Shown here: positions 3,026 to 14,189 of the stretch, piece by piece
Position numbering within the stretch: position 1 is the stretch's first letter
How the letters are laid out: the number at the start of each line of letters is the position of its first letter
NCBI GenBank assembly: GCA_017543725.1
Contig: JAFYFO010000226.1
Location: 1 to 14,361 of the forward strand
Reading direction: 5' to 3'
From: Eubacterium sp.
GTDB taxonomy: Bacteria; Bacillota; Clostridia; Oscillospirales; Acutalibacteraceae
Length of the DNA stretch: 14,361 nucleotides
Notes under the pieces: generated by a model
The model's input: the letters and a program-made list of their open reading frames with translations, nothing else
Database searches by the model: none
What the model was told of the DNA's origin: nothing
Program-made: the position numbers and the translations under genes

Positions 3026-3736
3026 ATGGAAAAGAAAGAAATGCTCTATGAGGGTAAGGCAAAACAGGTATTTGCAACAGATGATCCCGAGGTACTTCTG
3101 GTTCATTACAAGGATGACGCGACTGCGTTCAACGGTTTGAAGAAGGGTACCATTTCCGGTAAGGGCGCGATCAACAACCGCGTTACGAATTTTATGATGC
3201 AGGTACTTGAAAAGGAAGGCGTTCCCACTCATTTCGTGGAAGAACTGAACGATCGTGATACTCTTGTTAAGAAAGTATCGATAGTTCCGCTTGAGGTTAT
3301 CATCAGAAATATCAGCGCAGGTTCATTTGCGAAGCATTACGGAGTAGAAGAGGGCATTGTATTTGATGAGCCGACCATAGAGTTTTCTTATAAAAATGAT
3401 GAGCTCGGCGATCCCCTGATCAACGAGTATCATGCACTGGCACTGAAGCTTGCTACCAAGGCCGAGATCGCGCGGATCAAGGAGCTTGCGTTCAAGACCA
3501 ATGAAGTAATGAAGAAGTTCTTCAAGGAGAGAAAGGTCGATCTGGTTGATTTCAAGCTTGAGTTCGGACGCCTTTCGGATGGGACCATAGTTCTTGCCGA
3601 TGAAATTTCTCCCGATACCTGCCGTTTCTGGGACAGTGAAACAGGCGAAAAACTTGATAAAGACCGTTTCCGCAGGGATATGGGCGGAGTTGAAGACGCA
3701 TATAACGAAATGATGCGCAGAGTGTTTGGAGAATAA
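3026..3736 (+). CDS. purC: Phosphoribosylaminoimidazole-succinocarboxamide synthase (SAICAR synthetase, PurC)
   Basis: PurC condenses CAIR with aspartate using ATP to give SAICAR, the eighth step of IMP synthesis in the cytosol. The 236-residue length matches single-domain bacterial PurC. Motifs in order are [10 protein letters not shown] (ATP loop), [53 protein letters not shown] and the metal/nucleotide site [14 protein letters not shown]. The ATG at 3026 is preceded by GGGAGG at 3015-3020 with a 5-nt spacer. Codon use resembles the upstream genes rather than the purine genes that follow: valine is GTT 9, GTA 7, GTG 2 and GTC 1. The AATAATTGAG repeat begins inside its stop codon. It lies 103 bp before purF with no terminator between, so it is probably the first gene of the operon. 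Confidence 0.97.
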
Positions 3737-3759
3737 TTGAGAGTTTCGCGTTGCGCGTT
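3732..3759 (+). repeat. Left copy of a repeat also found after purL
   Basis: AATAATTGAG (3732-3741), nine other bases, then TTGCGCGTT (3751-3759). The same two blocks occur joined without the nine bases at 14103-14121, just past the far end of the purF-purL block. Confidence 0.55.
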
Positions 3760-3785
3760 TTGCGTTTCGCGTTGCGCGTTTTGCG
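3744..3785 (+). repeat. Two perfect 21-bp tandem repeats between purC and purF
   Basis: Units at 3744-3764 and 3765-3785 are identical, each starting TTTCGCGTTGCGCG and ending TTTTGCG. The GC-rich CGCG core differs from the surrounding AT-rich sequence. The array sits exactly where codon use changes between purC and purF. Confidence 0.85.
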
Positions 3786-3826
3786 GCTTTTCGTTTACTC
3801 GGTAACAGCAATCTGTAATAATATAT

Positions 3827-3831
3827 AGGAG
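3827..3831 (+). promoter_or_regulatory. Ribosome binding site of purF-like gene
   Basis: AGGAG lies 8 nt before the ATG at 3840. Together with an in-frame TAA at 3816 it rules out an upstream start that could supply an N-terminal cysteine. Confidence 0.7.
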
Positions 3832-3839
3832 AACAAAAA

Positions 3840-5264
3840 ATGGGTGGATTTTTCGGTGCAGTTGGAAAGGGAAGCGTTATATCGGATGTTTTTTTCGGAA
3901 CGGACTATCATTCACACCTCGGAACAAGACGAGGCGGCGTTGCGGTTTATGATGAGGAAAAAGGTCTTCAGAGAAAAATACATAATATAACTAATTCTCC
4001 TTTCCGCACAAAGTTTGAAAATATATATAGCGAAATGGAAGGAACATCCGCAATCGGATGCATAAGCGATTACGACCCCCAACCCCTTCTGATTCGCTCA
4101 TCTCTCGGACTTTATGCCCTTTGTATGATAGGAATTATAACAAACGCAGACGAACTGATTCAGAAATATTTCAAAGATAACGGGGGTCAGTTCTGTGCAA
4201 TGAACGGCGGGGGAGTTAATTCAACAGAACTTTTATCGGCGCTGATTAACCAGAAAGAAGATTTTGTTTCGGGCATAAAATTTGCCCAGAGCGTTATTGA
4301 GGGAACTGCTTCAATCCTGCTTCTGACAAATGACGGAAGAATTATTGCGGCAAGGGATAAACTCGGCAGGCTCCCGATTGTAACGGGAAAGAGAGAAAAC
4401 GCCTACTGCGTTTCATTCGAGGATTTTGCCTATAAGAAACTCGGCTACACGGATGAAAAGGAACTCGGACCCGGCGAAATTGTTGAAATTTCGGCAGACG
4501 GCATAAAAACCCTTTCAAAAGCGGAAAAGAAAATGAGAATCTGCTCTTTCCTCTGGACATACTACGGCTATCCGACCTCTTCATATGAGGGCGTTAACGT
4601 TGAAGTTATGCGCTGCCGAAACGGCTCAATAATGGCTCAAAACGATAAAGACGGTAAAAACACTTCCGATATTGATTATGTCGGCGGTGTTCCCGATTCG
4701 GGAACGGCACACGCAATCGGATACGCAACAAAAAGCGGCGTTCCGTTTGCAAGAGCGTTTATCAAATACACTCCGACCTGGTCGAGAAGTTTTATGCCGA
4801 CCAATCAGAAAGACCGAAACAAAATTGCAAAAATGAAACTGATTCCCGTTGAGGATTTAATCAAAAACAAGAGCCTGCTCTTTGTTGACGATTCAATTGT
4901 CCGCGGAACTCAGATGAAAGAAACGGTTGATTTTCTTTATGAACACGGCGCGAAAGAAGTTCATATAAGAAGCGCCTGCCCTCCGATTATGTTCGGATGC
5001 AAATATCTCAACTTTTCAAGAGCAACAAGCGATATGGAACTTATTGCAAGAAGAGTTATTATGGAACTTGAGGGTGAAGAGGGCTTCAACCATATTGATG
5101 AATATATAGATACCAAAACCGAGCGCGGAAAGAAACTCAGGGATTCAATCTGCGAAAAACTTCGTTTTGCTTCCCTTGAATTCCAGACCCTTGACGGAAT
5201 TATTGAGGCTATCGGAATTCCGAGAGAGAATCTTTGCACTTATTGCTGGAACGGAAAGGAATAA
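3840..5264 (+). CDS. purF: PurF-like amidophosphoribosyltransferase lacking the glutaminase cysteine
   Basis: The product is 474 residues with the two-domain layout of glutamine PRPP amidotransferase: an N-terminal Ntn glutaminase-like domain (about 1-225) and a C-terminal phosphoribosyltransferase domain. The PRPP loop is LFVDDSIVRGTQ at about 347-358, preceded by GGVPDSGTAHAIGY and RSFMPTNQ. Canonical PurF begins Met-Cys-Gly, the Cys becoming the N-terminal nucleophile; here the start is MGGFFGAV and the first Cys is residue 74. Other glutaminase residues are also altered: the RYST region reads SDYD, HNGNLTN reads MIGIITN, and SDTE reads NSTE. The four cysteines that bind the 4Fe-4S cluster in Bacillus-type PurF appear kept (C235, C387, C466, C469). 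It resembles a subfamily I recall from gut Clostridia that is annotated as amidophosphoribosyltransferase. I infer ammonia-dependent phosphoribosylamine synthesis, or a partner glutaminase. It is 3 bp upstream of purM. Confidence 0.9.
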   Translation: MGGFFGAVGKGSVISDVFFGTDYHSHLGTRRGGVAVYDEEKGLQRKIHNITNSPFRTKFENIYSEMEGTSAIGCISDYDPQPLLIRSSLGLYALCMIGIITNADELIQKYFKDNGGQFCAMNGGGVNSTELLSALINQKEDFVSGIKFAQSVIEGTASILLLTNDGRIIAARDKLGRLPIVTGKRENAYCVSFEDFAYKKLGYTDEKELGPGEIVEISADGIKTLSKAEKKMRICSFLWTYYGYPTSSYEGVNVEVMRCRNGSIMAQNDKDGKNTSDIDYVGGVPDSGTAHAIGYATKSGVPFARAFIKYTPTWSRSFMPTNQKDRNKIAKMKLIPVEDLIKNKSLLFVDDSIVRGTQMKETVDFLYEHGAKEVHIRSACPPIMFGCKYLNFSRATSDMELIARRVIMELEGEEGFNHIDEYIDTKTERGKKLRDSICEKLRFASLEFQTLDGIIEAIGIPRENLCTYCWNGKE

Positions 5265-5267
5265 ACT

Positions 5268-6311
5268 ATGAACCTTAATTCAAAAAGTGAAAGTTATGCA
5301 AAAGCGGGCGTTGATATAACCGCAGGATACAGGGCTGTTGAACTTATGAAAGAGCATATCGCAAAAACTTCAACAGCGGGCGTTATGAGCGGAATAGGCG
5401 GATTCGGCGGTCTTTTTGAACTTGATTTAACAGGCATTTCAAAGCCCGTTCTTGTTTCGGGAACGGACGGAGTCGGAACAAAACTGAAACTTGCATTTGA
5501 AGCGGATAAACACGATACAATCGGCATAGACTGCGTTGCAATGTGCGTTAACGATATAATCTGCTGCGGCGCAAAACCGCTTTTCTTCCTTGATTATATT
5601 GCCTGCGGAAAAAACTTTCCCGAAAGAATTGCCGAAATTGTTAAGGGCGTTTGCGACGGCTGCGTTCAGTCGGGCGCCGCGCTGATTGGCGGCGAAACCG
5701 CTGAAATGCCCGGATTTTATCCCGAAAAGGAATACGACCTTGCAGGCTACTGCACGGGCGTTGTTGATAAGGATAAAATAATTGATAATAAAGAAATGAA
5801 AGCGGGCGATATTGTTTTGGCGCTTCCTTCAAGCGGCGTTCATTCAAACGGATTTTCGCTTGTCAGAAAAGTTTTTGATATTGAAAGCCGGAGCGCAAAA
5901 CAGCCCCTTGAAGAACTCGGCGGCAAGAGCATTCTTGAAACGCTTTTAACACCGACAAAAATCTATGTTAAGCCGATTCTGGCGCTTCTTGAAGAGGTTG
6001 ATGTTTTCGCAATTTCCCATATAACCGGCGGCGGATTTTATGAAAACATTCCGAGAAGTATTCCCGACGGACTCGGCGTTGTTATCAAAGAGGCGGATGT
6101 CAGAGTTCTTCCCATATTCGATATGATTGAAAAAGAGGGAAATATCAGCCGCCGCGATATGTTCAACACCTTCAATATGGGCGTTGGAATGAGCGTTGTT
6201 GTTGCAAAAGAGCAGGCGCAAAAGGCGCTTGAAATTCTTAAAGCAAACGGCGAAGAGGCATATATCCTCGGCGAAGTTGTTGAAAGCGATAAAAAAATCG
6301 AGTTGGTATAA
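5268..6311 (+). CDS. purM: Phosphoribosylformylglycinamidine cyclo-ligase (AIR synthetase, PurM)
   Basis: PurM closes the imidazole ring, converting FGAM plus ATP to AIR. The 347-residue length fits the bacterial family. Visible motifs are GTDGVGTKLKLA (65-76), CVAMCVNDIICCGAKPLFFLDYIACGK (about 89-115), GGETAEMPGFY (141-151), SSGVHSNGFSLVRK, and HITGGGFYENIPR near residue 250. The ATG lies 3 bp after the purF-like stop, with AAAGG at the end of purF as ribosome binding site, so translation is probably coupled. Codon use is extreme: 27 of 31 valines are GTT and none is GTG, unlike murG and purC upstream. Function is secure from conservation. Confidence 0.97.
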   Translation: MNLNSKSESYAKAGVDITAGYRAVELMKEHIAKTSTAGVMSGIGGFGGLFELDLTGISKPVLVSGTDGVGTKLKLAFEADKHDTIGIDCVAMCVNDIICCGAKPLFFLDYIACGKNFPERIAEIVKGVCDGCVQSGAALIGGETAEMPGFYPEKEYDLAGYCTGVVDKDKIIDNKEMKAGDIVLALPSSGVHSNGFSLVRKVFDIESRSAKQPLEELGGKSILETLLTPTKIYVKPILALLEEVDVFAISHITGGGFYENIPRSIPDGLGVVIKEADVRVLPIFDMIEKEGNISRRDMFNTFNMGVGMSVVVAKEQAQKALEILKANGEEAYILGEVVESDKKIELV

Positions 6312-6314
6312 ATT

Positions 6315-6941
6315 ATGGCGGAAAAAACTAAAATAGCCGTTCTTGTTTCGGGCGGCGGAACAAATCTTCAGGCGCTTATTGATTTTGAAAAAAGCGGCAG
6401 ATTGCAGCATGGAAAACTGTGCCTTGTTATTTCCGATAACGAAAATGCGTTTGCGCTTGAAAGAGCAAAAAAGGCACAGATTAAAACATCGGTAATCCTG
6501 AAAAGAAATTTTGAAAGCAAAAAAGCGTTTGAAGAGGCGATTATAAAAACCCTTGAAGAGAATGAAATCGAACTCATTATTCTTGCGGGCTTTATGAAGA
6601 TTTTAAGCGAGGACTTCACAAAGCGCTATCCCGAAAGAATAATCAATGTTCATCCCTCGCTGATTCCTTCTTTTTGCGGAGAAGGCTTCTATGGACTTAA
6701 AGTTCACGAGGCGGCGCTCGGCTACGGCGTTAAGGTAACGGGCGCAACAGTTCATTTTGTTAACGAAATTCCCGACGGCGGAAGAATAATTCTTCAGAAA
6801 GCCGTTGAGATTAAAGAGGGCGACACGCCCGAAATTCTTCAGAAAAGAGTTATGGAACAGGCGGAGTGGAAAATACTTCCCGCCGCTGCCGAAAAGGTTT
6901 GCAAAGAAATCTCAGAGAACAGACAAGGAGCATTAGTGTGA
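6315..6941 (+). CDS. purN: Phosphoribosylglycinamide formyltransferase (PurN)
   Basis: This is the 10-formyl-THF-dependent GAR transformylase, which converts GAR to FGAR, the third pathway step. The 208-residue protein starts with the Rossmann-like KIAVLVSGGGTNLQALID. The catalytic set is intact: Asn111 and His113 in INVHPSLIPSF, and Asp154 in FVNEIPDGG, following GATVHF with His147. The ATG lies 3 bp after purM with no clear ribosome binding site, which suggests coupled translation. The stop codon TGA (6939-6941) lies inside a perfect 11-bp inverted repeat, so the gene's last codons belong to a structured element that extends toward the next gene. It is one of several purine genes here that end in TAA or TGA. 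Confidence 0.96.
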   Translation: MAEKTKIAVLVSGGGTNLQALIDFEKSGRLQHGKLCLVISDNENAFALERAKKAQIKTSVILKRNFESKKAFEEAIIKTLEENEIELIILAGFMKILSEDFTKRYPERIINVHPSLIPSFCGEGFYGLKVHEAALGYGVKVTGATVHFVNEIPDGGRIILQKAVEIKEGDTPEILQKRVMEQAEWKILPAAAEKVCKEISENRQGALV

Positions 6942-6955: not shown

Positions 6956-7064
6956 ACAGATTATATTGCCCGCTCAGTTTGCCGCAAGCGACAACGAGCG
7001 ATGGCTATAATTCCCATTATACGCCTTGTATGCCCAACAAGGGAAAGTATAGTGTGTGAATTTT
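6941..7064 (+). other. Structured purN-purO intergenic element with distant complementary ends
   Basis: AAAATTCACAC (6941-6951) is the exact reverse complement of GTGTGAATTTT (7054-7064). With G-U pairs, the helix extends to 6937-6951 / 7054-7068. Inside lie CCTTGT/ACAAGG (7024-7029 / 7037-7042) and CGCTC/GAGCG (6971-6975 / 6996-7000). TAATTCCCAT (7008-7017) is complementary to ATGGGAATTA (7092-7101), which covers the next gene's start region. The long helix competes with the local 6932-6955 hairpin. It is the only long gap (162 nt) in an otherwise tightly packed operon. It may be a miniature insertion element or a regulatory leader for the IMP cyclohydrolase gene. Confidence 0.45.
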
Positions 7065-7103
7065 TATAATCAATTTGTGGGCAGAAAGGCTATGGGAATT
7101 AAT

Positions 7104-7823
7104 ATGAATATTTATGAAATCAAAAAAATAGGTGAAGCAGTTGAGGGCAATTCCTATGTCGGACGCGGAATTGTTTGCGGAAAGAGCGAAAACGGCAAAA
7201 AGGCGCTTTGCGCATACTTCATAATGGGCAGAAGCGAAAACAGCAGAAACAGAGTTTTCAGCCTTAAAGACGGCGTTCTTTACACAGAGCCTTTTGACGC
7301 TTCAAAGGTTGAGGACCCGAGCCTTATCATCTATGCCGCTGCAAGAAAACTTGAAAACAATTTCATAGCAACAAACGGCGACCAGACAGACACGATTTTT
7401 GAGGCGCTCAAGGAGGGCAAAACCTTTGAGCAGGCGCTTGAAACAAGATGTTTTGAGCCCGATAAGCCGAATTTCACTCCGAGAATCAGTTCAATGATAA
7501 CTTTTGCGGATAATGATTTTTCATATAAAATGAGCATTCTCAAAAGCATTGACGAAGAGGGAAGCGACTGCGCAAGATACACTTTCTCCTACCCTTCAAA
7601 AGCAGGTCTCGGACATTTTATTCACACCTATGTTTGCGACGGCAACCCGATTCCGACCTTCCGGGGCGAGCCCGAAAGAGTTTTCATTCCAAATGATATT
7701 GATGAATTCACAAACGCTCTCTGGAATTCGCTTGATGAAGATAATAAAATTTCGCTTTTCGTTTCCTGCACTGATTTGGAAACAAAGAGCGAGGAAATAA
7801 GAATAATAAACAAGAATAAATAA
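7104..7823 (+). CDS. purO: IMP cyclohydrolase, PurO-type (stand-alone)
   Basis: The 239-residue product matches the stand-alone IMP cyclohydrolase family (PF07826, archaeal PurO). These enzymes have an Ntn-hydrolase-like fold and close FAICAR to IMP, the last pathway step. The diagnostic N-terminal stretch is GNSYVGRGIVCG (15-26), followed by AYFIMGRSENSRNRVF (37-52) and later ATNGDQTDTI, then FTPRISSMI. No MGS-like IMPCH domain of bacterial PurH is present. Position supports the call: the next gene is an AICAR transformylase lacking that domain. Starts are uncertain. GTG 7056 and ATG 7092 are in frame, but a GGGA at 7094-7097 with 6-nt spacing and the family N-terminus favour ATG 7104. I could not run a domain search; the family call rests on the motifs and neighbour. 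Confidence 0.88.
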   Translation: MNIYEIKKIGEAVEGNSYVGRGIVCGKSENGKKALCAYFIMGRSENSRNRVFSLKDGVLYTEPFDASKVEDPSLIIYAAARKLENNFIATNGDQTDTIFEALKEGKTFEQALETRCFEPDKPNFTPRISSMITFADNDFSYKMSILKSIDEEGSDCARYTFSYPSKAGLGHFIHTYVCDGNPIPTFRGEPERVFIPNDIDEFTNALWNSLDEDNKISLFVSCTDLETKSEEIRIINKNK

Positions 7824-7835
7824 GCGAGGTGCGAT

Positions 7836-9020
7836 ATGAAAGAATTTGAACTTAAATACGGATGCAATCCAAACCAGAAACCTGCAAAAATCTATATGGA
7901 AGACGGCGGCGAACTTCCCATTGAAATCCTTGCAGGAAAACCAGGATATATAAATTTTCTCGACGCTTTTAATTCATGGCAACTTGTTTGTGAACTCAAA
8001 GCCGCTCTGGGAATGCCCGCAGCCGCTTCTTTCAAGCATGTCAGCCCGACCTCTGCGGCAATCGGACTTCCCCTTGATGAAAAACTCAAAAAGGCTTGCT
8101 TTGTTGACGATATTGAAAACCTTGATGAATCTGCGCTTGCCTGCGCTTATGCAAGAGCAAGAGGAACGGACAGACTGTGTTCATTCGGCGATTGGGTTGC
8201 CCTTTCGGATGTTTGCGATTCAACAACAGCAAAACTTATAAAAAGAGAGGTTTCCGACGGCGTTATCGCTCCCGGCTACACCGACGAGGCGCTTGAAATA
8301 CTTAAAACAAAGCGCGGCGGCAACTATAATATAGTTAAAATTGATGAAAACTATGTTCCTGCAAAACAGGAGAAAAAGCAGGTTTTCGGAATAACTTTTG
8401 AGCAGGGAAGAAACGATTATAGAATTGACGAAAGCGTTCTTTCAAATATTGTAACTCAAAACAAGCAGTTCCCCGAAAGCGCACTTAAAGACCTTGTTAT
8501 CGCGCTTATAACTCTTAAATACACTCAGTCAAATTCGGTTTGCTACGCTTATAATGGACAGGCTATCGGAGTCGGCGCGGGCCAGCAGTCAAGAATCCAC
8601 TGCACCCGTCTTGCGGGAAGCAAGGCGGACACCTGGTTCCTTCGCCAGAGCGATAAGGTTCTCAACCTTCCTTTCAAGGATGAAATCGGACGCGCGATAA
8701 GAGATAATGTTATCGACGGATATATCAATCAGAATGAAGAAGATGTTTGCTCAGACGGCGTTTGGCAGAAATACTTCACCGCTCAGCCCGAGCCTTTCAC
8801 AAAAGAAGAACAAAGAGCATATCTCAGCACTCTTGACGGAGTTGCTCTCGGCTCGGACGCTTTCTTCCCGTTTGATGACAATATTATGCGCGCTGCGGCA
8901 AGCGGTGTTAAATATGTTGCTGAGCCGGGCGGTTCAATCCGTGACGACGCCGTTATCGAAAGAGCCGATAAACTCGGTATGGTTATGGCATTCACAGGTA
9001 TGAGATTATTCCACCACTGA
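7836..9020 (+). CDS. purH: AICAR transformylase without the IMP cyclohydrolase domain (PurH C-terminal type)
   Basis: The 394-residue protein corresponds to the AICARFT domain only; bifunctional PurH is about 510-525 residues. It transfers a formyl group from 10-formyl-THF to AICAR, giving FAICAR. It begins at KYGCNPNQKPAKIY, equivalent to the LRYGENPHQ junction of bifunctional PurH. The catalytic Lys67-His68 are in SFKHVSPTSAAIG. GAGQQSRIHCTRLA and SDAFFPFDDNIMRAA are conserved, as is the C-terminal EPGGSIRDDAVIERADKLGMVMAFTGMRLFHH. The start is not a truncation artefact: ATG 7836 has a GAGGTG ribosome binding site and lies 12 bp after the PurO gene. The two genes together replace the fused enzyme. 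Enzyme identity is strong; substrate use is inferred from intact motifs. Confidence 0.93.
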   Translation: MKEFELKYGCNPNQKPAKIYMEDGGELPIEILAGKPGYINFLDAFNSWQLVCELKAALGMPAAASFKHVSPTSAAIGLPLDEKLKKACFVDDIENLDESALACAYARARGTDRLCSFGDWVALSDVCDSTTAKLIKREVSDGVIAPGYTDEALEILKTKRGGNYNIVKIDENYVPAKQEKKQVFGITFEQGRNDYRIDESVLSNIVTQNKQFPESALKDLVIALITLKYTQSNSVCYAYNGQAIGVGAGQQSRIHCTRLAGSKADTWFLRQSDKVLNLPFKDEIGRAIRDNVIDGYINQNEEDVCSDGVWQKYFTAQPEPFTKEEQRAYLSTLDGVALGSDAFFPFDDNIMRAAASGVKYVAEPGGSIRDDAVIERADKLGMVMAFTGMRLFHH

Positions 9021-9039: not shown

Positions 9040-10305
9040 TTGAAGATATTGGTAGTAGGCGGCGGAGGAAGAGAACACGCCGTAATCAAAAAGTTTAAAG
9101 AAAACAAAGAAGTTGAAGAAATATTTGCGCTTCCCGGAAACGGAGGAATTGCAAAAGACGCAAAATGCGTTGATATCGGCGCAACGGATATTGAAAAAAT
9201 TGTTGATTTTGCAGTTAAAGAAAGCATTGATTATGCGGTTGTAACTCCCGATGACCCGCTTGTCCTCGGCTGTGTCAATGCGCTTGAGGAAAAGGGCATA
9301 CCCTGCTTCGGTCCGCGCGCTGAGGCTGCAATAATCGAGGGAAGCAAGGCTTTTTCAAAAGAACTTATGAAGAAATACGGAATTCCAACTGCAGAATTCA
9401 GAACTTTTGATAATCTTGAAAAAGCGCTCTCGTATGTTGAAACCTGCCCCATTCCAACAGTTGTCAAGGCTGACGGACTTGCTCTTGGCAAGGGCGTTAT
9501 CATTGCTCAGACGAGGGAGGAGGCAAAAAGCGCTCTCATTTCAATGATGCAGGATAAAGCCTTCGGAAAAAGCGGCGACACCGTTGTTATCGAAGAATTT
9601 CTGACAGGTCCGGAAGTTTCCGTTCTTGCTTTCACGGACGGAAAAACAGTTAAACCGATGGTTTCATCAATGGACCATAAAAGAATAGGCGACGGCGATA
9701 AGGGGCTCAATACCGGCGGTATGGGAACAATCGCACCAAATCCCTATTATTCCGAAGCAATTGCCGAAAGATGTATGAAGGAAATCTTTATTCCGACAAT
9801 CGAGGCGATGAATAAAGAGGGAAGAACTTTTAAAGGATGTCTTTATTTCGGACTTATGATAACCGAAAACGGACCCAAGGTTATTGAATATAACTGCCGT
9901 TTCGGCGACCCTGAAACCCAGGTTGTTCTTCCGCTTCTTGAAAGCGATTTGCTTGAAATTATGCAGGCGGTAACAAACGGGTCTCTTGATGAGTGCGAAG
10001 TTAAGTTCAGCGATAAAAAAGCCTGCTGCGTTATTATGGCAAGCCGGGGATATCCCGTTAAATACGGCAAGGGCTATGAAATAACAATTCCCGAGGATAT
10101 TCAGGACAGAGTTTTTGTTGCGGGCGCTAAACTCGAAAACGAAAAACTCTTAACAAACGGCGGAAGAGTTCTCGGCGTAACAGAAATAAGAAAAACGCTC
10201 AGGGAAGCGATTGAGGCGTCATATAAGGATGTTGAAAGAATAAACTTTGAAAACGCTTATTTCCGCAAAGATATCGGCGCTAAAGCGCTTTTGGCAGAGG
10301 TGTAA
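9040..10305 (+). CDS. purD: Phosphoribosylamine-glycine ligase (GAR synthetase, PurD)
   Basis: PurD joins phosphoribosylamine to glycine with ATP, directly consuming the unstable product of the PurF step. The 421-residue ATP-grasp enzyme starts at a TTG codon with the expected MKILVVGGGGREHAV. Motifs include GPRAEAAIIEGSKAFSKELM, VVKADGLALGKGVIIA, EEFLTGPEVSVLAFTDG, DHKRIGDGDKGLNTGGMG (about 212-229) and YNCRFGDPETQ (284-294), which carries the metal-binding Glu/Asp region. The protein is of normal length and shows no domain fusion; in some bacteria and eukaryotes PurD is fused to PurM and PurN. It follows the AICARFT gene by 19 bp and precedes purL by 2 bp. Its presence beside an altered PurF suggests direct hand-over of phosphoribosylamine. 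Confidence 0.97.
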   Translation: MKILVVGGGGREHAVIKKFKENKEVEEIFALPGNGGIAKDAKCVDIGATDIEKIVDFAVKESIDYAVVTPDDPLVLGCVNALEEKGIPCFGPRAEAAIIEGSKAFSKELMKKYGIPTAEFRTFDNLEKALSYVETCPIPTVVKADGLALGKGVIIAQTREEAKSALISMMQDKAFGKSGDTVVIEEFLTGPEVSVLAFTDGKTVKPMVSSMDHKRIGDGDKGLNTGGMGTIAPNPYYSEAIAERCMKEIFIPTIEAMNKEGRTFKGCLYFGLMITENGPKVIEYNCRFGDPETQVVLPLLESDLLEIMQAVTNGSLDECEVKFSDKKACCVIMASRGYPVKYGKGYEITIPEDIQDRVFVAGAKLENEKLLTNGGRVLGVTEIRKTLREAIEASYKDVERINFENAYFRKDIGAKALLAEV

Positions 10306-10307
10306 TT

Positions 10308-13300
10308 ATGGTATACAGAATATTTGTTGAAAAAAGAGAAAACCTTGCAAACGAAGCGGCTTCGCTTCTTTCGGAAATCAGGGATTTTCTTAAAATCAAT
10401 TCAATAACAAATCTTCGTATTCTTAACAGATACGACGCTGAAAACATAACCGAAGAACTCTTTGAAACCGCGGTTAAAACTGTTTTTTCGGAACCCCAGA
10501 CCGATATAACATATAAAGAGCCCGCGCTTGACGGAAACGCCGTTTTCGCTGTTGAATACCTTCCGGGTCAGTTCGACCAGAGAGCCGATTCAGCCGCTCA
10601 GTGTATTCAGCTTATTTCCTGCGGTGAAAGACCGATTGTCCGCGCCGCAAAGGTTTATGTTTTATACGGCGATTTAACAAAGGAAGAAATAGCGGCGGTT
10701 AAAAAATATGTTATCAACCCCGTTGATTCGCGTGAAGCCTCGCTTGAACTTCCGAAAACGCTCAACATTCCCTATGATATGCCCGACAGCGTTGCAACAA
10801 TGGAAGGCTTCACCGAACTTGATGAGAGCGGACTTCAGAATCTTATAAACGAACTCGGTCTTGCAATGGATTTGGATGATATAAAATTCTGTCAGCAGTA
10901 TTTTATTTCGGAAAAGAGAAATCCGACTATAACCGAAATCAGAATGGCGGACACCTATTGGAGCGACCATTGCCGCCACACAACATTTTTAACCGTTATT
11001 GATTCGGTAACCTTTGAAGATGAAATCGTTGAAAAGGCGTATAACGAATATCTTGCAAAGAAAAAAGAACTCGCCACAACCTCTCCGATTTGTCTTATGG
11101 ATATCGCAACTCTTGCCGCCAAAGCGCTCAAGGCAGACGGCAGATTAACAGGTCTTGATGAATCGGATGAAATAAACGCCTGCACGGTTAAAATCAATGT
11201 TACAGTTGACGGCAAAGAAGAGCCGTGGCTTCTTCTTTTCAAAAATGAAACCCACAACCACCCAACCGAAGTTGAGCCCTTCGGCGGCGCGGCAACCTGC
11301 ATAGGCGGCGCAATCCGCGACCCGCTTTCAGGCAGAGCATATGTTTACGGCGCAATGCGTATAACAGGCGCGGCGGACCCACTCAAACCTGTTGAAGAAA
11401 CAATCAAGGGCAAACTTCCTCAGAGAAAAATCGTAACGGGCGCCGCAGCGGGATATTCTTCATACGGAAACCAGATTGGTCTTGCAACGGGAATTGTTGA
11501 CGAACTTTATCACGATGGCTATGCCGCAAAAAGAATGGAAATCGGCGCGGTTGTTGCAGCCGCACCCGAAGAGAATGTTCGCCGTGAAAAGCCCGTTGCA
11601 GGGGATATAATTATTCTTCTCGGCGGAGCAACAGGCCGCGACGGAATCGGCGGCGCAACGGGCTCTTCAAAGGCGCACACTGTTTCTTCCGTTGAAAAAT
11701 GCGGAGCGGAAGTTCAAAAGGGTAACGCTCCCGAAGAAAGAAAACTTCAAAGGCTTTTCAGAAGAAAAGACGCCTGCAATCTCATTAAAAAATGCAATGA
11801 TTTCGGCGCAGGCGGAGTTTCCGTTGCAATCGGTGAACTTGCAGACGGACTTGAAATAGACCTTGATAAAGTTCCGAAGAAATATGAAGGTCTTGACGGA
11901 ACAGAACTTGCAATCAGCGAAAGCCAAGAAAGAATGGCGGTTGTTGTTGATAAAAACGACGCCGAAAAATTCATCTCAATGGCAAAAGAGGAAAACCTCA
12001 GCGCAACGCCTGTTGCAGTTGTAACGGAAGAGGCACGCCTTGTTATGAACTGGCACGGCAAAAAAATCGTTGATATTTCAAGAAGTTTCCTCGATTCAAA
12101 CGGCGCTGAAAAGCATATTGATATCAGGGCTGCGAAGGCTGATAAATATTCAAAAGAAATTCCTCAGAGTTTTTCAGAGGGTTATAAAGAACTCTTATCC
12201 GATTTGAATATCTGCTCGAAAAGAGGACTTTCCGAAAGATTTGATTCAACAATCGGCGCAGGAACGGTTATTATGCCCTTCGGCGGAAAAAATCAGTTAA
12301 CTCCTGCTCAGGCAATGGTTCAGAAAGTTTCCGTTGAAAAGAAACATACCGACACCTGCTCGCTTATGGCTTGGGGATATAATCCCTTTATCGCGGAGCA
12401 AAGCCCCTATCACGGCGCATATCTCGCGGTTGTTGAAAGCGTTGCAAAACTTATTGCCTCGGGCACTTCCTTCAAACAGGTTTATTTAACTTTCCAGGAA
12501 TACTTTGAGCATCCCGGAAACGAATCAAGCCGCTGGGGCAAACCGCTTTCAGCCCTTCTCGGAGCATATAAGGCTCAACTTGAACTCGGAGTCGGTTCAG
12601 TCGGGGGAAAGGATTCGATGAGCGGAAGTTTTGAAGATATAGATGTTCCGCCAACTCTTGTTTCCTTTGCGGTTACAACCGAAAAAACAAAAGATATAAT
12701 TTCAAACGATTTCAAAAAAGCAGGAAGCAAGGCGGTTTTAATCTCTCCCGAATATGATGAAAACGCTCTTCCCAAATCAGAGTCTTTAATTAAAGTTTTC
12801 AACAAAGTTACCTCGCTTATCAGAGAGGGCAAGGCATATTCTGTTTACACCCCGTCAATCGGCGGTATTGCCGAAGCGGTTTTCAAAATGTGCATTGGAA
12901 ACGGATTCGGATTTAAGTTTTCCGATGAACTGAGTATGGAGGAACTTTTCGGATATAAATACGGCTCCTTCATTGTTGAAACGGATGATGAAACTGCGGG
13001 AAAACTTATCGGAACGGTTGAAAACGGCTCAGAAATTAAGTATAAAAACGAAAAAGCCGATATGGGCGCTCTTCTTTCCTGCTATGAAAACAAACTCGAA
13101 AGCGTTTATCCGAGCAGAGCAAGGGCGGATAAAACCGAGGCTCCCGTTGTTTCCTATGAAGCAAAGGAAAGAGTTGCTCCGGCAATCAAATGCGCAAAGC
13201 CGAAAATTCTTATTCCCGCATTTCCGGGAACAAACTGCGAATACGATACTGCAAAATCTGCCGCAGACGCAGGACTTGAGCCTGAAATCTTTGTTATAAA

Positions 13301-13994
13301 CAATATGAGCAAGGACGGTATTTTAAACAGCGTTGAAACCTTCGCTAAGAAGGTCAGAGAGTCGCAGATAGTCTTTATTCCCGGAGGTTTTTCAGGAGGC
13401 GACGAGCCCGACGGAAGCGGTAAATTCATAACCGCGTTTTTCAGAAACGCAGATGTTAAAGACGCTGTTTCAGACCTTCTTGATAATCGCGACGGTCTTA
13501 TGGCAGGCATTTGCAACGGCTTCCAGGCGCTTATCAAACTCGGTCTTGTTCCGTTCGGAAAGATTATTGAAGCGGATGAAACCTGCCCGACCCTGACATT
13601 CAACACAATCGGACGCCACCAGTCAAGAATTGTCAGAACGCGCGTTGCATCAAACAAATCCCCGTGGCTTGCGCACACCGAAGTCGGCGAAATATATAAT
13701 GTTCCCGTGTCCCACGGCGAGGGAAGATTTATAGCAAGCGATGAACTTCTTGAAAGCCTTATTGAAAACGGTCAGGTTGCAACTCAGTATTGCGACCTTG
13801 AGGGCAACCCGACTCTTGATATTGATTTCAATGTTAACGGCTCGTTCTATGCTATTGAGGGTATCACATCGCCCGACGGCAGAGTTCTCGGCAAAATGGG
13901 TCACTCGGAGCGTATCGGCGAGGGATTATATATGAATGTTCCCGGTGAATATGATATGAAGATTTTCAAATCTGCAAAAGAATATTTCAAATAA
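10308..13994 (+). CDS. purL: Phosphoribosylformylglycinamidine synthase, one-piece PurL with fused glutaminase
   Basis: The 1228-residue enzyme converts FGAR, glutamine and ATP to FGAM. It is the long clostridial form (TIGR01857-like, as I recall), which merges the PurS, PurL and PurQ functions; no purS or purQ lies nearby. The N-terminal PurS-like part (about 1-170) is followed by TYWSDHCRHTTF with His221, then the first AIRS-like domain with NETHNHPTEVEPFGG (313 on) and GGATGRDGIGGATGSS. A second AIRS-like half includes LGVGSVGGKDSMSG. The C-terminal class I glutaminase starts near AKPKILIPAFPGTNCEYD. Its catalytic triad looks intact: Cys1069 in GICNGFQAL, and His1199 with Glu1201 in MGHSER; oxyanion-type sequence PGGFSGGDEPDGSGK is also present. 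The ATG lies 2 bp after purD with GAGGTG 5 nt upstream. It is the last gene of the operon. Confidence 0.97.
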   Translation: MVYRIFVEKRENLANEAASLLSEIRDFLKINSITNLRILNRYDAENITEELFETAVKTVFSEPQTDITYKEPALDGNAVFAVEYLPGQFDQRADSAAQCIQLISCGERPIVRAAKVYVLYGDLTKEEIAAVKKYVINPVDSREASLELPKTLNIPYDMPDSVATMEGFTELDESGLQNLINELGLAMDLDDIKFCQQYFISEKRNPTITEIRMADTYWSDHCRHTTFLTVIDSVTFEDEIVEKAYNEYLAKKKELATTSPICLMDIATLAAKALKADGRLTGLDESDEINACTVKINVTVDGKEEPWLLLFKNETHNHPTEVEPFGGAATCIGGAIRDPLSGRAYVYGAMRITGAADPLKPVEETIKGKLPQRKIVTGAAAGYSSYGNQIGLATGIVDELYHDGYAAKRMEIGAVVAAAPEENVRREKPVAGDIIILLGGATGRDGIGGATGSSKAHTVSSVEKCGAEVQKGNAPEERKLQRLFRRKDACNLIKKCNDFGAGGVSVAIGELADGLEIDLDKVPKKYEGLDGTELAISESQERMAVVVDKNDAEKFISMAKEENLSATPVAVVTEEARLVMNWHGKKIVDISRSFLDSNGAEKHIDIRAAKADKYSKEIPQSFSEGYKELLSDLNICSKRGLSERFDSTIGAGTVIMPFGGKNQLTPAQAMVQKVSVEKKHTDTCSLMAWGYNPFIAEQSPYHGAYLAVVESVAKLIASGTSFKQVYLTFQEYFEHPGNESSRWGKPLSALLGAYKAQLELGVGSVGGKDSMSGSFEDIDVPPTLVSFAVTTEKTKDIISNDFKKAGSKAVLISPEYDENALPKSESLIKVFNKVTSLIREGKAYSVYTPSIGGIAEAVFKMCIGNGFGFKFSDELSMEELFGYKYGSFIVETDDETAGKLIGTVENGSEIKYKNEKADMGALLSCYENKLESVYPSRARADKTEAPVVSYEAKERVAPAIKCAKPKILIPAFPGTNCEYDTAKSAADAGLEPEIFVINNMSKDGILNSVETFAKKVRESQIVFIPGGFSGGDEPDGSGKFITAFFRNADVKDAVSDLLDNRDGLMAGICNGFQALIKLGLVPFGKIIEADETCPTLTFNTIGRHQSRIVRTRVASNKSPWLAHTEVGEIYNVPVSHGEGRFIASDELLESLIENGQVATQYCDLEGNPTLDIDFNVNGSFYAIEGITSPDGRVLGKMGHSERIGEGLYMNVPGEYDMKIFKSAKEYFK

Positions 13995-14042: not shown

Positions 14043-14052
14043 ATCTTAATGT

Positions 14053-14080
14053 AAAATGCAAAATGCAAAATGGAAAATTT
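14053..14080 (+). repeat. AAAATGC heptamer tandem repeat
   Basis: Two exact AAAATGC units (14053-14066), then AAAATGG and AAAATTT, form four degenerate 7-bp units directly after the terminator hairpin. Confidence 0.7.
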
Positions 14081-14154: not shown

Positions 14155-14189
14155 AATTACGAATTACGAGTGACGAATTACGAATTTCG
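14155..14189 (+). repeat. AATTACG heptamer tandem repeat
   Basis: Five 7-bp units, AATTACG, AATTACG, AGTGACG, AATTACG and AATTTCG, run without gaps. It is a short simple-sequence array of a kind seen between genes in some Clostridia. Confidence 0.75.

Follow-up and report, generated by a model that had tools for sequence, protein, structure and literature searches.

A PurF-Like Family without the Glutaminase Nucleophile in Clostridia and Its Probable Dependence on Free Ammonia

Purine synthesis is taught as a glutamine-initiated pathway. A stretch of 14,361 nucleotides from Eubacterium sp., analysed at its full length and referred to here as the window, raises the question of how the pathway begins when the gene in the purF slot encodes a PurF homologue that lacks the N-terminal cysteine nucleophile. 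The gene (Table 1) lies in an operon ordered purC, Cys-less PurF gene, purM, purN, IMP cyclohydrolase-like gene, AICAR formyltransferase gene, purD, and purL. Its product begins MGGFFG, and the first cysteine is residue 74. A plausible Shine-Dalgarno sequence, AGGAG, lies at 3827-3831, ahead of the start. This start, with no upstream alternative that would supply a cysteine, had been proposed in a sequence-only reading of the window and is borne out by the open reading frame and by the in-frame stop that precedes it. A frameshift or miscalled start that hides the cysteine was ruled out by the same stop and by the presence of MGG(F/Y)FG in the 36 aligned rows described below.

Several other features of the contig were recorded. 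Separate genes for IMP cyclohydrolase (PF07826) and AICAR formyltransferase, at 7056-9020, replace the fused PurH. A perfect 21-bp tandem duplication, in two copies with degenerate GTTTCGC units, lies at 3743-3785 between purC and the PurF-like gene. Past purL, near the contig end, are two short arrays of heptamer repeats, AATGCAA and AATTACG, at 14048-14078 and 14155-14186.

Table 1. Features of the window, with ZTP riboswitches found ahead of Cys-less pur operons in five loci (positions given within each locus)
Feature	Position	Strand	Basis
purC	3026..3736	+	TIGR00081, 256 bits
In-frame TAA stop upstream of the PurF-like ORF; excludes a Cys start further upstream	3816..3818	+	Read directly
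Cys-less PurF-like protein, 474 aa	3840..5264	+	ORF; TIGR01134, 175 bits (cut-off 350); best PDB relatives are PurF
N-terminal domain (former glutaminase, Ntn-fold), residues 1-230; equivalents of Cys1, R26, R72-T75, N102, and D127 lost	3840..4529	+	Alignments; boundary approximate
Family signature DYHSHLGT, residues 22-29 (canonical PurF, (Y/F)ALQHRGQ)	3903..3926	+	Alignment
Phosphoribosyltransferase domain, residues 231-474	4530..5261	+	Structural relatives and alignment
Fe-S ligand Cys235	4542..4544	+	Alignment
Remodelled flexible loop KYTPTWSRSF, residues 309-318 (canonical K-N(R/K)Y(I/V)GR(T/S)F; K, R, and F kept)	4764..4793	+	Alignments
PRPP loop DDSIVRGT, residues 350-357	4887..4910	+	Alignment
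Fe-S ligand Cys387	4998..5000	+	Alignment
Fe-S ligands Cys466 and Cys469	5235..5246	+	Alignment
purM	5268..6311	+	TIGR00878, 449 bits
purN	6315..6941	+	TIGR00639, 206 bits
IMP cyclohydrolase-like protein; start codon uncertain	7056..7823	+	PF07826, 202 bits, scanned from 7092
AICAR formyltransferase, stand-alone	7836..9020	+	NF005492, 663 bits
purD, consumer of phosphoribosylamine	9040..10305	+	TIGR00877, 534 bits
purL, large form; glutaminase motif GICNGFQ intact	10308..13994	+	TIGR01857, 1858 bits, and motif
ZTP riboswitch, L192	4117-4213		
ZTP riboswitch, L198	4566-4646		
ZTP riboswitch, L203	5443-5524		
ZTP riboswitch, L097	8624-8703		
ZTP riboswitch, L108	8006-8105		

Active-site residues were compared in an alignment of 36 family rows, 53 canonical PurFs of the same GTDB order, and B. 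subtilis PurF. The rows came from loci L001 to L088, leaving out L015 (start pattern unmatched), L081 (cut by the locus edge), L030 (no full-length ORF), L001 (identical to the window), and L020 (G034:C19), a canonical purF with an internal TAG stop whose match is otherwise full-length. At the Cys1 position the family reads Met-Gly in 36/36 rows, and cysteine is found in none of them versus all 53 canonical rows. R26 is replaced by leucine, N102 by isoleucine or valine, and D127 by glycine, serine, or asparagine, each in 36/36 rows, with the alignment register around D127 uncertain. The canonical R72-T75 stretch is absent or reads S-D-x-D, also in an uncertain register. The PRPP loop DDSIVRGT is present in every family and canonical row (36/36 and 53/53), and the PPi-loop PDSG is present in 36/36 family rows. 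K305 is kept in 36/36 and R311 in 35/36, as are Fe-S cysteines C235 and C387 (36/36) and C466 and C469 (35/36, with a gap in one row). Thus, what had been noted for the single protein, loss of the glutaminase Cys, Arg, Asn, and Asp positions together with an intact PRPP loop and four Fe-S cysteines, holds across the family, within the register uncertainty at R72-T75 and D127. Because the substitution pattern is family-wide, it reflects neither sequencing error nor chance decay.

The glutaminase site was not merely lost. New residues, counted in 52 family rows versus 10 canonical rows, are near-invariant, which indicates rebuilding of both the N domain and the flexible loop, followed by fixation. 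In the N domain these residues are DYHS-L-T (22-29; D22, Y23, H24, S25, L27, and T29 each in 52/52 rows), IH-I-N-P-RTKF (47-59), CISD (74-77), and N127. In the rest of the protein they are LW (238-239), H291, R305, YTPTW (310-314), and Q358, which takes the place of canonical T353 beside the PRPP loop. One explanation for the rebuilt, invariant flexible loop over the active site (KYTPTWxRSF) and for the change from T353 to Q358 is that the protein uses PRPP in some other reaction, with a different nucleophile. However, the gene stands between purC and purM, where purF belongs, and no other PurF candidate turned up in genomes that keep purD, so we regard a different reaction as extremely improbable.

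The protein retains the architecture of PurF. It scores 175.3 bits against the NCBIfam purF equivalog TIGR01134, below the cut-off of 350, and its PDB relatives are PurF enzymes, with B. subtilis PurF the closest. An AlphaFold2 model (pLDDT 87, pTM 0.86) has the two-domain PurF fold, with the lowest confidence at residues 312-318 in the flexible loop, and its top Foldseek match, which spans its length, is 1ao0, the B. subtilis PurF (TM 0.82/0.85). In a tree, the family (52 rows) and canonical PurF (43 rows) fall on either side of a branch with an SH-aLRT support of 100%. The root of this tree, placed at the midpoint, is a drawing aid only. Subtype B (22 rows) forms one group inside the family with support of 98, and the remaining 30 rows, which include the window and are referred to as subtype A, are not a single clade. 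Compared with two relatives that are 90-91% identical, the N domain has a dN/dS of 0.05-0.075 and the C domain one of 0.085-0.087, values low enough to rule out a decaying pseudogene. The strong purifying selection and the new invariant residues fit the possibility, raised in the sequence-only reading, that the N domain may have acquired a new role.

To evaluate the distribution of the family, P0001 and TIGR01134 were searched in 297 genomes of the order, the window's own and 296 others, each of the others at least 90% complete. E-values to P0001 were bimodal, either ≤1.1e-109 or about 1e-33 to 2e-49. The PurF class of a genome was set by score, N-termini being inspected just for the aligned rows, and the order-wide searches for PurF, glutamate synthase, and Amt gave scores to no more than five first-look candidates in each genome, so that an overlooked PurF copy is possible in the counts that follow. 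The family was found in 165 of the 296 other genomes: alone in 67, with a full canonical PurF in 97, and with a partial canonical PurF in 1. Genomes without the family comprised 109 with canonical PurF only, 1 with a partial canonical PurF only, and 21 with neither (20 listed and 1 unlisted). Incomplete assemblies were rejected as the sole cause of the missing canonical PurF, because 22 of the 67 Cys-less-only genomes, counted by hand, reach at least 98% completeness. Within the window's genus (24 relatives), 17 genomes had a canonical PurF and 22 had a family-level match.

The family extends beyond the order. It was found in 17 of 298 other genomes sampled from the phylum, each with a further match at the canonical level or weaker. 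Ten loci fetched from the phylum sample, one of which (L303) belongs to the order, all start without Cys and all have KYTPTWxRSF and a C-terminal CTYC. DYHSHLGT and DDSIVRGT are each present in 9/10, with DYNSHLAT in L305 and DDSVVRGT in L310 (G342:C12), the latter also having a non-ATG-looking start, LGGLF. A genome in the phylum sample, G514, carries two Cys-less copies (C67:12485-13882 and C49:150356-151753) in addition to a canonical-level match. The 80 public records of the family that were kept are mostly Clostridia metagenome assemblies, with named sources that are mostly rumen or animal gut, and the records that name the proteins call them amidophosphoribosyltransferase.

Gene neighbourhoods place the family in the purine pathway. 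In the 80 public loci, the next recognised downstream gene was purM in 77 (none was recognised in 3), and the recognised upstream gene was purC in 39 (none in 41). The neighbour search covered pur genes, canonical PurF, and four other window genes, and canonical purF was not found in any of these 80 stretches of 3-21 kb. Cys-less-only genomes keep the enzyme that consumes phosphoribosylamine: purD was found in 65/67, 64 above the cut-off (a fragment in G132 fell below it, and G044 and G152 had no match). It was found in 3 of the 13 genomes tested from the 20 listed with neither PurF.

The two subtypes differ in their link to the operon. Subtype A lay inside the pur operon in all 11 of the Cys-less-only subtype A loci that contained the gene; the stretch fetched for L202 lacked it. 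Subtype B was unlinked to the pur operon in 21 of 24 loci, the exceptions being L191, L200, and L258, and no neighbour of the solitary subtype B genes recurred in more than 3 of 20 loci. ZTP riboswitches were detected in 5 of 7 pur-operon loci with the Cys-less gene and in none of 9 subtype B loci. Rfam searches revealed none in the window or in 8 canonical-cluster loci.

The replaced glutaminase site, the retained PRPP, PPi, and Fe-S sites, the purF slot, and the many near-complete genomes in which no other PurF was found lead to the reading that this is an ammonia-dependent PurF. We consider it likely, on the strength of these features, that the Cys-less protein is a PurF-fold phosphoribosyltransferase that makes 5-phosphoribosylamine (PRA) from PRPP and free ammonia, serving as a high-ammonia isozyme beside glutamine-dependent PurF. 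Synthesis of phosphoribosylamine from ammonia, as proposed in the sequence-only reading, is the best-supported interpretation, given the intact PRPP and PPi sites and the 67 genomes with no other PurF found, 65 of them with purD; catalysis itself is what we infer. Against it stand the two Cys-less-only genomes without a purD match, the 3 genomes that have purD but neither PurF, the mostly solitary subtype B genes, and the lack of a ZTP riboswitch in the subtype B loci and in the window.

Two alternatives bear on the genomes that have one or both forms. If the protein were a paralogue without catalytic activity that instead regulates the pathway or canonical PurF, loss of the glutaminase residues and the gain of new invariant ones would be understandable, as would the full canonical PurF in 97 of the 165 carriers in the order. 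However, invariant PRPP and PPi sites, and the standing of the Cys-less form as the sole PurF found in 67 genomes with purD in 65, make this very unlikely. Alternatively, as the sequence-only reading also allowed, the protein might be an active phosphoribosyltransferase supplied with ammonia by a separate glutaminase, for example the glutaminase domain of PurL or a canonical PurF that joins it in a mixed oligomer. PurL is encoded in the same operon, and both the window and all 6 Cys-less-only loci that reach PurL keep its glutaminase motif intact (13 were scanned; the other 7 were too short). Thus, these cells do use glutamine in the purine pathway, a point against dependence on free ammonia. 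Furthermore, in five loci with both forms (L204-L207 and L232) the pur operon contains both the Cys-less and the canonical gene, four of these having been picked as tandem. Canonical PurF was not found in 67 near-complete genomes, and delivery by a partner therefore seems unlikely.

Canonical PurF neighbourhoods were examined with a reference-protein search within 8.5 kb in hand-chosen genomes, 44 with both forms and 20 canonical-only. Glutamine or nitrogen genes were near canonical PurF in 30/44 loci from genomes with both forms versus 1/20 canonical-only loci (pyrG). In the canonical-only loci, purC was near canonical PurF in 19/20 and purM in 15/20. In genomes of the window's genus with both forms, glutamate synthase parts were nearby in 9/10, Amt-PII in 8/10, and purM in 0/10. 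In other genera with both forms, pyrG, carAB, asnB, GS, GOGAT, or Amt were near canonical PurF in 21/34, and purM was near it in 8/34, canonical PurF itself being in the pur operon; the five shared-operon loci described above are among these eight. Neither glutamine/nitrogen genes nor purM were near canonical PurF in L180, L234, L237, L240, and L241.

NCBIfam supports GlnA, Amt (with its P-II-like end), AsnB, CarA, CarB, and PyrG in the canonical PurF clusters. The glutamate synthase FMN-domain protein matches GltB below the NCBIfam cut-off. The proteins that we take to be gltB_GAT and gltGXGXG have no NCBIfam name, and those labels rest on gene order. Proteins of 697-700 aa labelled 'glnN' also have no NCBIfam name, and no locus was counted by that label alone. 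Two loci illustrate the clusters. L179 (4701-13670) has the glutamine amidotransferase cluster carB-carA-canonical purF-pyrG-asnB, possibly a low-ammonia glutamine regulon. L170 (10239-11984) encodes an Amt fused to a P-II-like domain (581 aa), close to glutamate synthase parts and GlnA.

Gene content also differs between the PurF classes. The glutamate synthase FMN domain (E ≤ 1e-20) was found in 5/67 Cys-less-only genomes, 90/97 with both, 75/109 canonical-only, and 3/20 with neither. The contrast between Cys-less-only genomes and those with both forms had a Fisher p of 6.7e-31 and a within-family CMH p of 3e-18, related genomes not being independent and family strata removing the effect of kinship in part. 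Small genome size was ruled out as the cause of the GOGAT link, because the contrast persists in each of four genome-size classes. Amt was found in 2/67, 72/97, 62/109, and 2/20 of the same classes (CMH p 3e-11). GDH was present in 65/67 Cys-less-only genomes and is not discriminating, because all 13 of the tested genomes with neither PurF carry GDH too. Exceptions that count against the ammonia reading were found in both directions: 5/67 Cys-less-only genomes kept GOGAT, and 7/97 with both forms lacked it. Canonical PurF was also kept without GOGAT in 34/109 canonical-only genomes. Among family carriers without GOGAT, 62/69 are without canonical PurF, as expected if the Cys-less form can replace the canonical enzyme when ammonia is plentiful.

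The window's own species probably belongs with those that have both forms. A genome search for a second PurF found no canonical copy in the window's assembly (G000; 74.6% complete, 398 contigs). However, two genomes of the same genus, G002 and G007, carry the same operon, with purM 89 and 87% identical to that of the window, and in both a canonical PurF adjoins the GXGXG gene within a glutamate-synthase cluster. The cluster breaks there in G000: the GXGXG gene is cut by the end of contig C357 (residues 1-92 of 244), which also carries the FMN-domain gene, and Amt is on another small contig, C337. Thus, canonical purF is probably just off the contig end, and its absence is likely an assembly gap. 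The suggestion that the window gene is the only PurF of its species is not supported, given the completeness of the assembly and the canonical copy that is probably missing from it. In the same genus, G003, G004, and G016 (90-93% complete, without canonical PurF) have no GXGXG match, and their FMN-domain matches are weak (E ≥ 5.7e-6). A stray contig in the bin was ruled out by the presence of the same operon in two other same-genus genomes.

In the mechanism that we favour, ammonia would enter the Cys-less PurF from solution, and PRA would pass from it to PurD. In species with both enzymes, the Cys-less PurF would be active at high ammonia; at low ammonia its place would be taken by the glutamine-dependent PurF, whose gene lies near GS, GOGAT, Amt, and PII or other glutamine-amidotransferase genes. 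Species that gave up GOGAT and Amt would keep the ammonia enzyme alone. A broader proposal, which we offer tentatively and which may well prove wrong, is that, across a large lineage of Clostridia from gut and rumen, the first committed purine step uses free ammonia, that the rebuilt N-domain site (DYHSHLGTRR, IHxIxNxPFRTKF, and CISD) gates or senses ammonia or a nucleotide, and that nitrogen status either picks between two PurF isozymes under separate regulons or renders the glutamine form unnecessary.

If the ammonia-dependent reading is right, PurF of this kind occurs naturally, and in some cases as the sole form, in a large group of bacteria from animal guts. Under the public name amidophosphoribosyltransferase, metabolic models would charge these cells for glutamine that they do not spend and would mispredict growth at low ammonia. 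The family would also provide natural tests of the fate of an Ntn glutaminase domain after glutamine cutting ends and of whether the half that forms PRA can function by itself in cells. From the split in gene content, clear predictions follow for how growth should vary with ammonia concentration.

No report of a bacterial Cys-less PurF family was found in the open literature, which misses most subscription journals, and neither papers on nitrogen sought there nor passages of the purine-regulation review PMC10912719 gave a lead. The bacterial family, the genomes with the Cys-less form alone, the canonical copy near glutamine and nitrogen genes, and the concurrent lack of canonical PurF, GOGAT, and Amt seem to be new. 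A Cys-less PurF homologue and its proposed ammonia dependence are already known from Crenarchaeota, as Brown et al. (2011; PMC3261824) describe.

Comparison with known systems defines what is distinctive. The family shares with the glutamine PRPP amidotransferase PurF (EC 2.4.2.14; B. subtilis 1ao0/1gph and E. coli 1ecf) the whole fold, the PRPP and PPi loops, the place in the pur operon, and four Fe-S cysteines of the B. subtilis type. Unlike PurF, it is without the Cys1 nucleophile and the glutamine-binding residues, has another invariant flexible loop, and scores 175 against the TIGR01134 cut-off of 350. The crenarchaeal PurF' is linked to purine genes and, like the window family, is a PurF homologue without the N-terminal Cys; according to that paper, many of its members carry Ala or Val in place of that Cys, and every Crenarchaeon examined had a true PurF as well (PMC3261824). 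In contrast to PurF', known here by that description, the window family has Gly at the Cys position in 36/36 rows and is found alone in 67/296 genomes of the order. The same source, citing Mei and Zalkin (1989), states that E. coli PurF without its Cys loses glutamine use and is left with ammonia use (PMC3261824). Those E. coli proteins are laboratory point mutants, whereas the Cys-less family is natural and has further remodelled residues. Ammonia assimilation is itself divided between GDH, a cheap and direct route at high ammonia, and the GS/GOGAT glutamine route at low ammonia. The division proposed for the two PurFs, as gene content and gene order suggest it, would follow a like logic.
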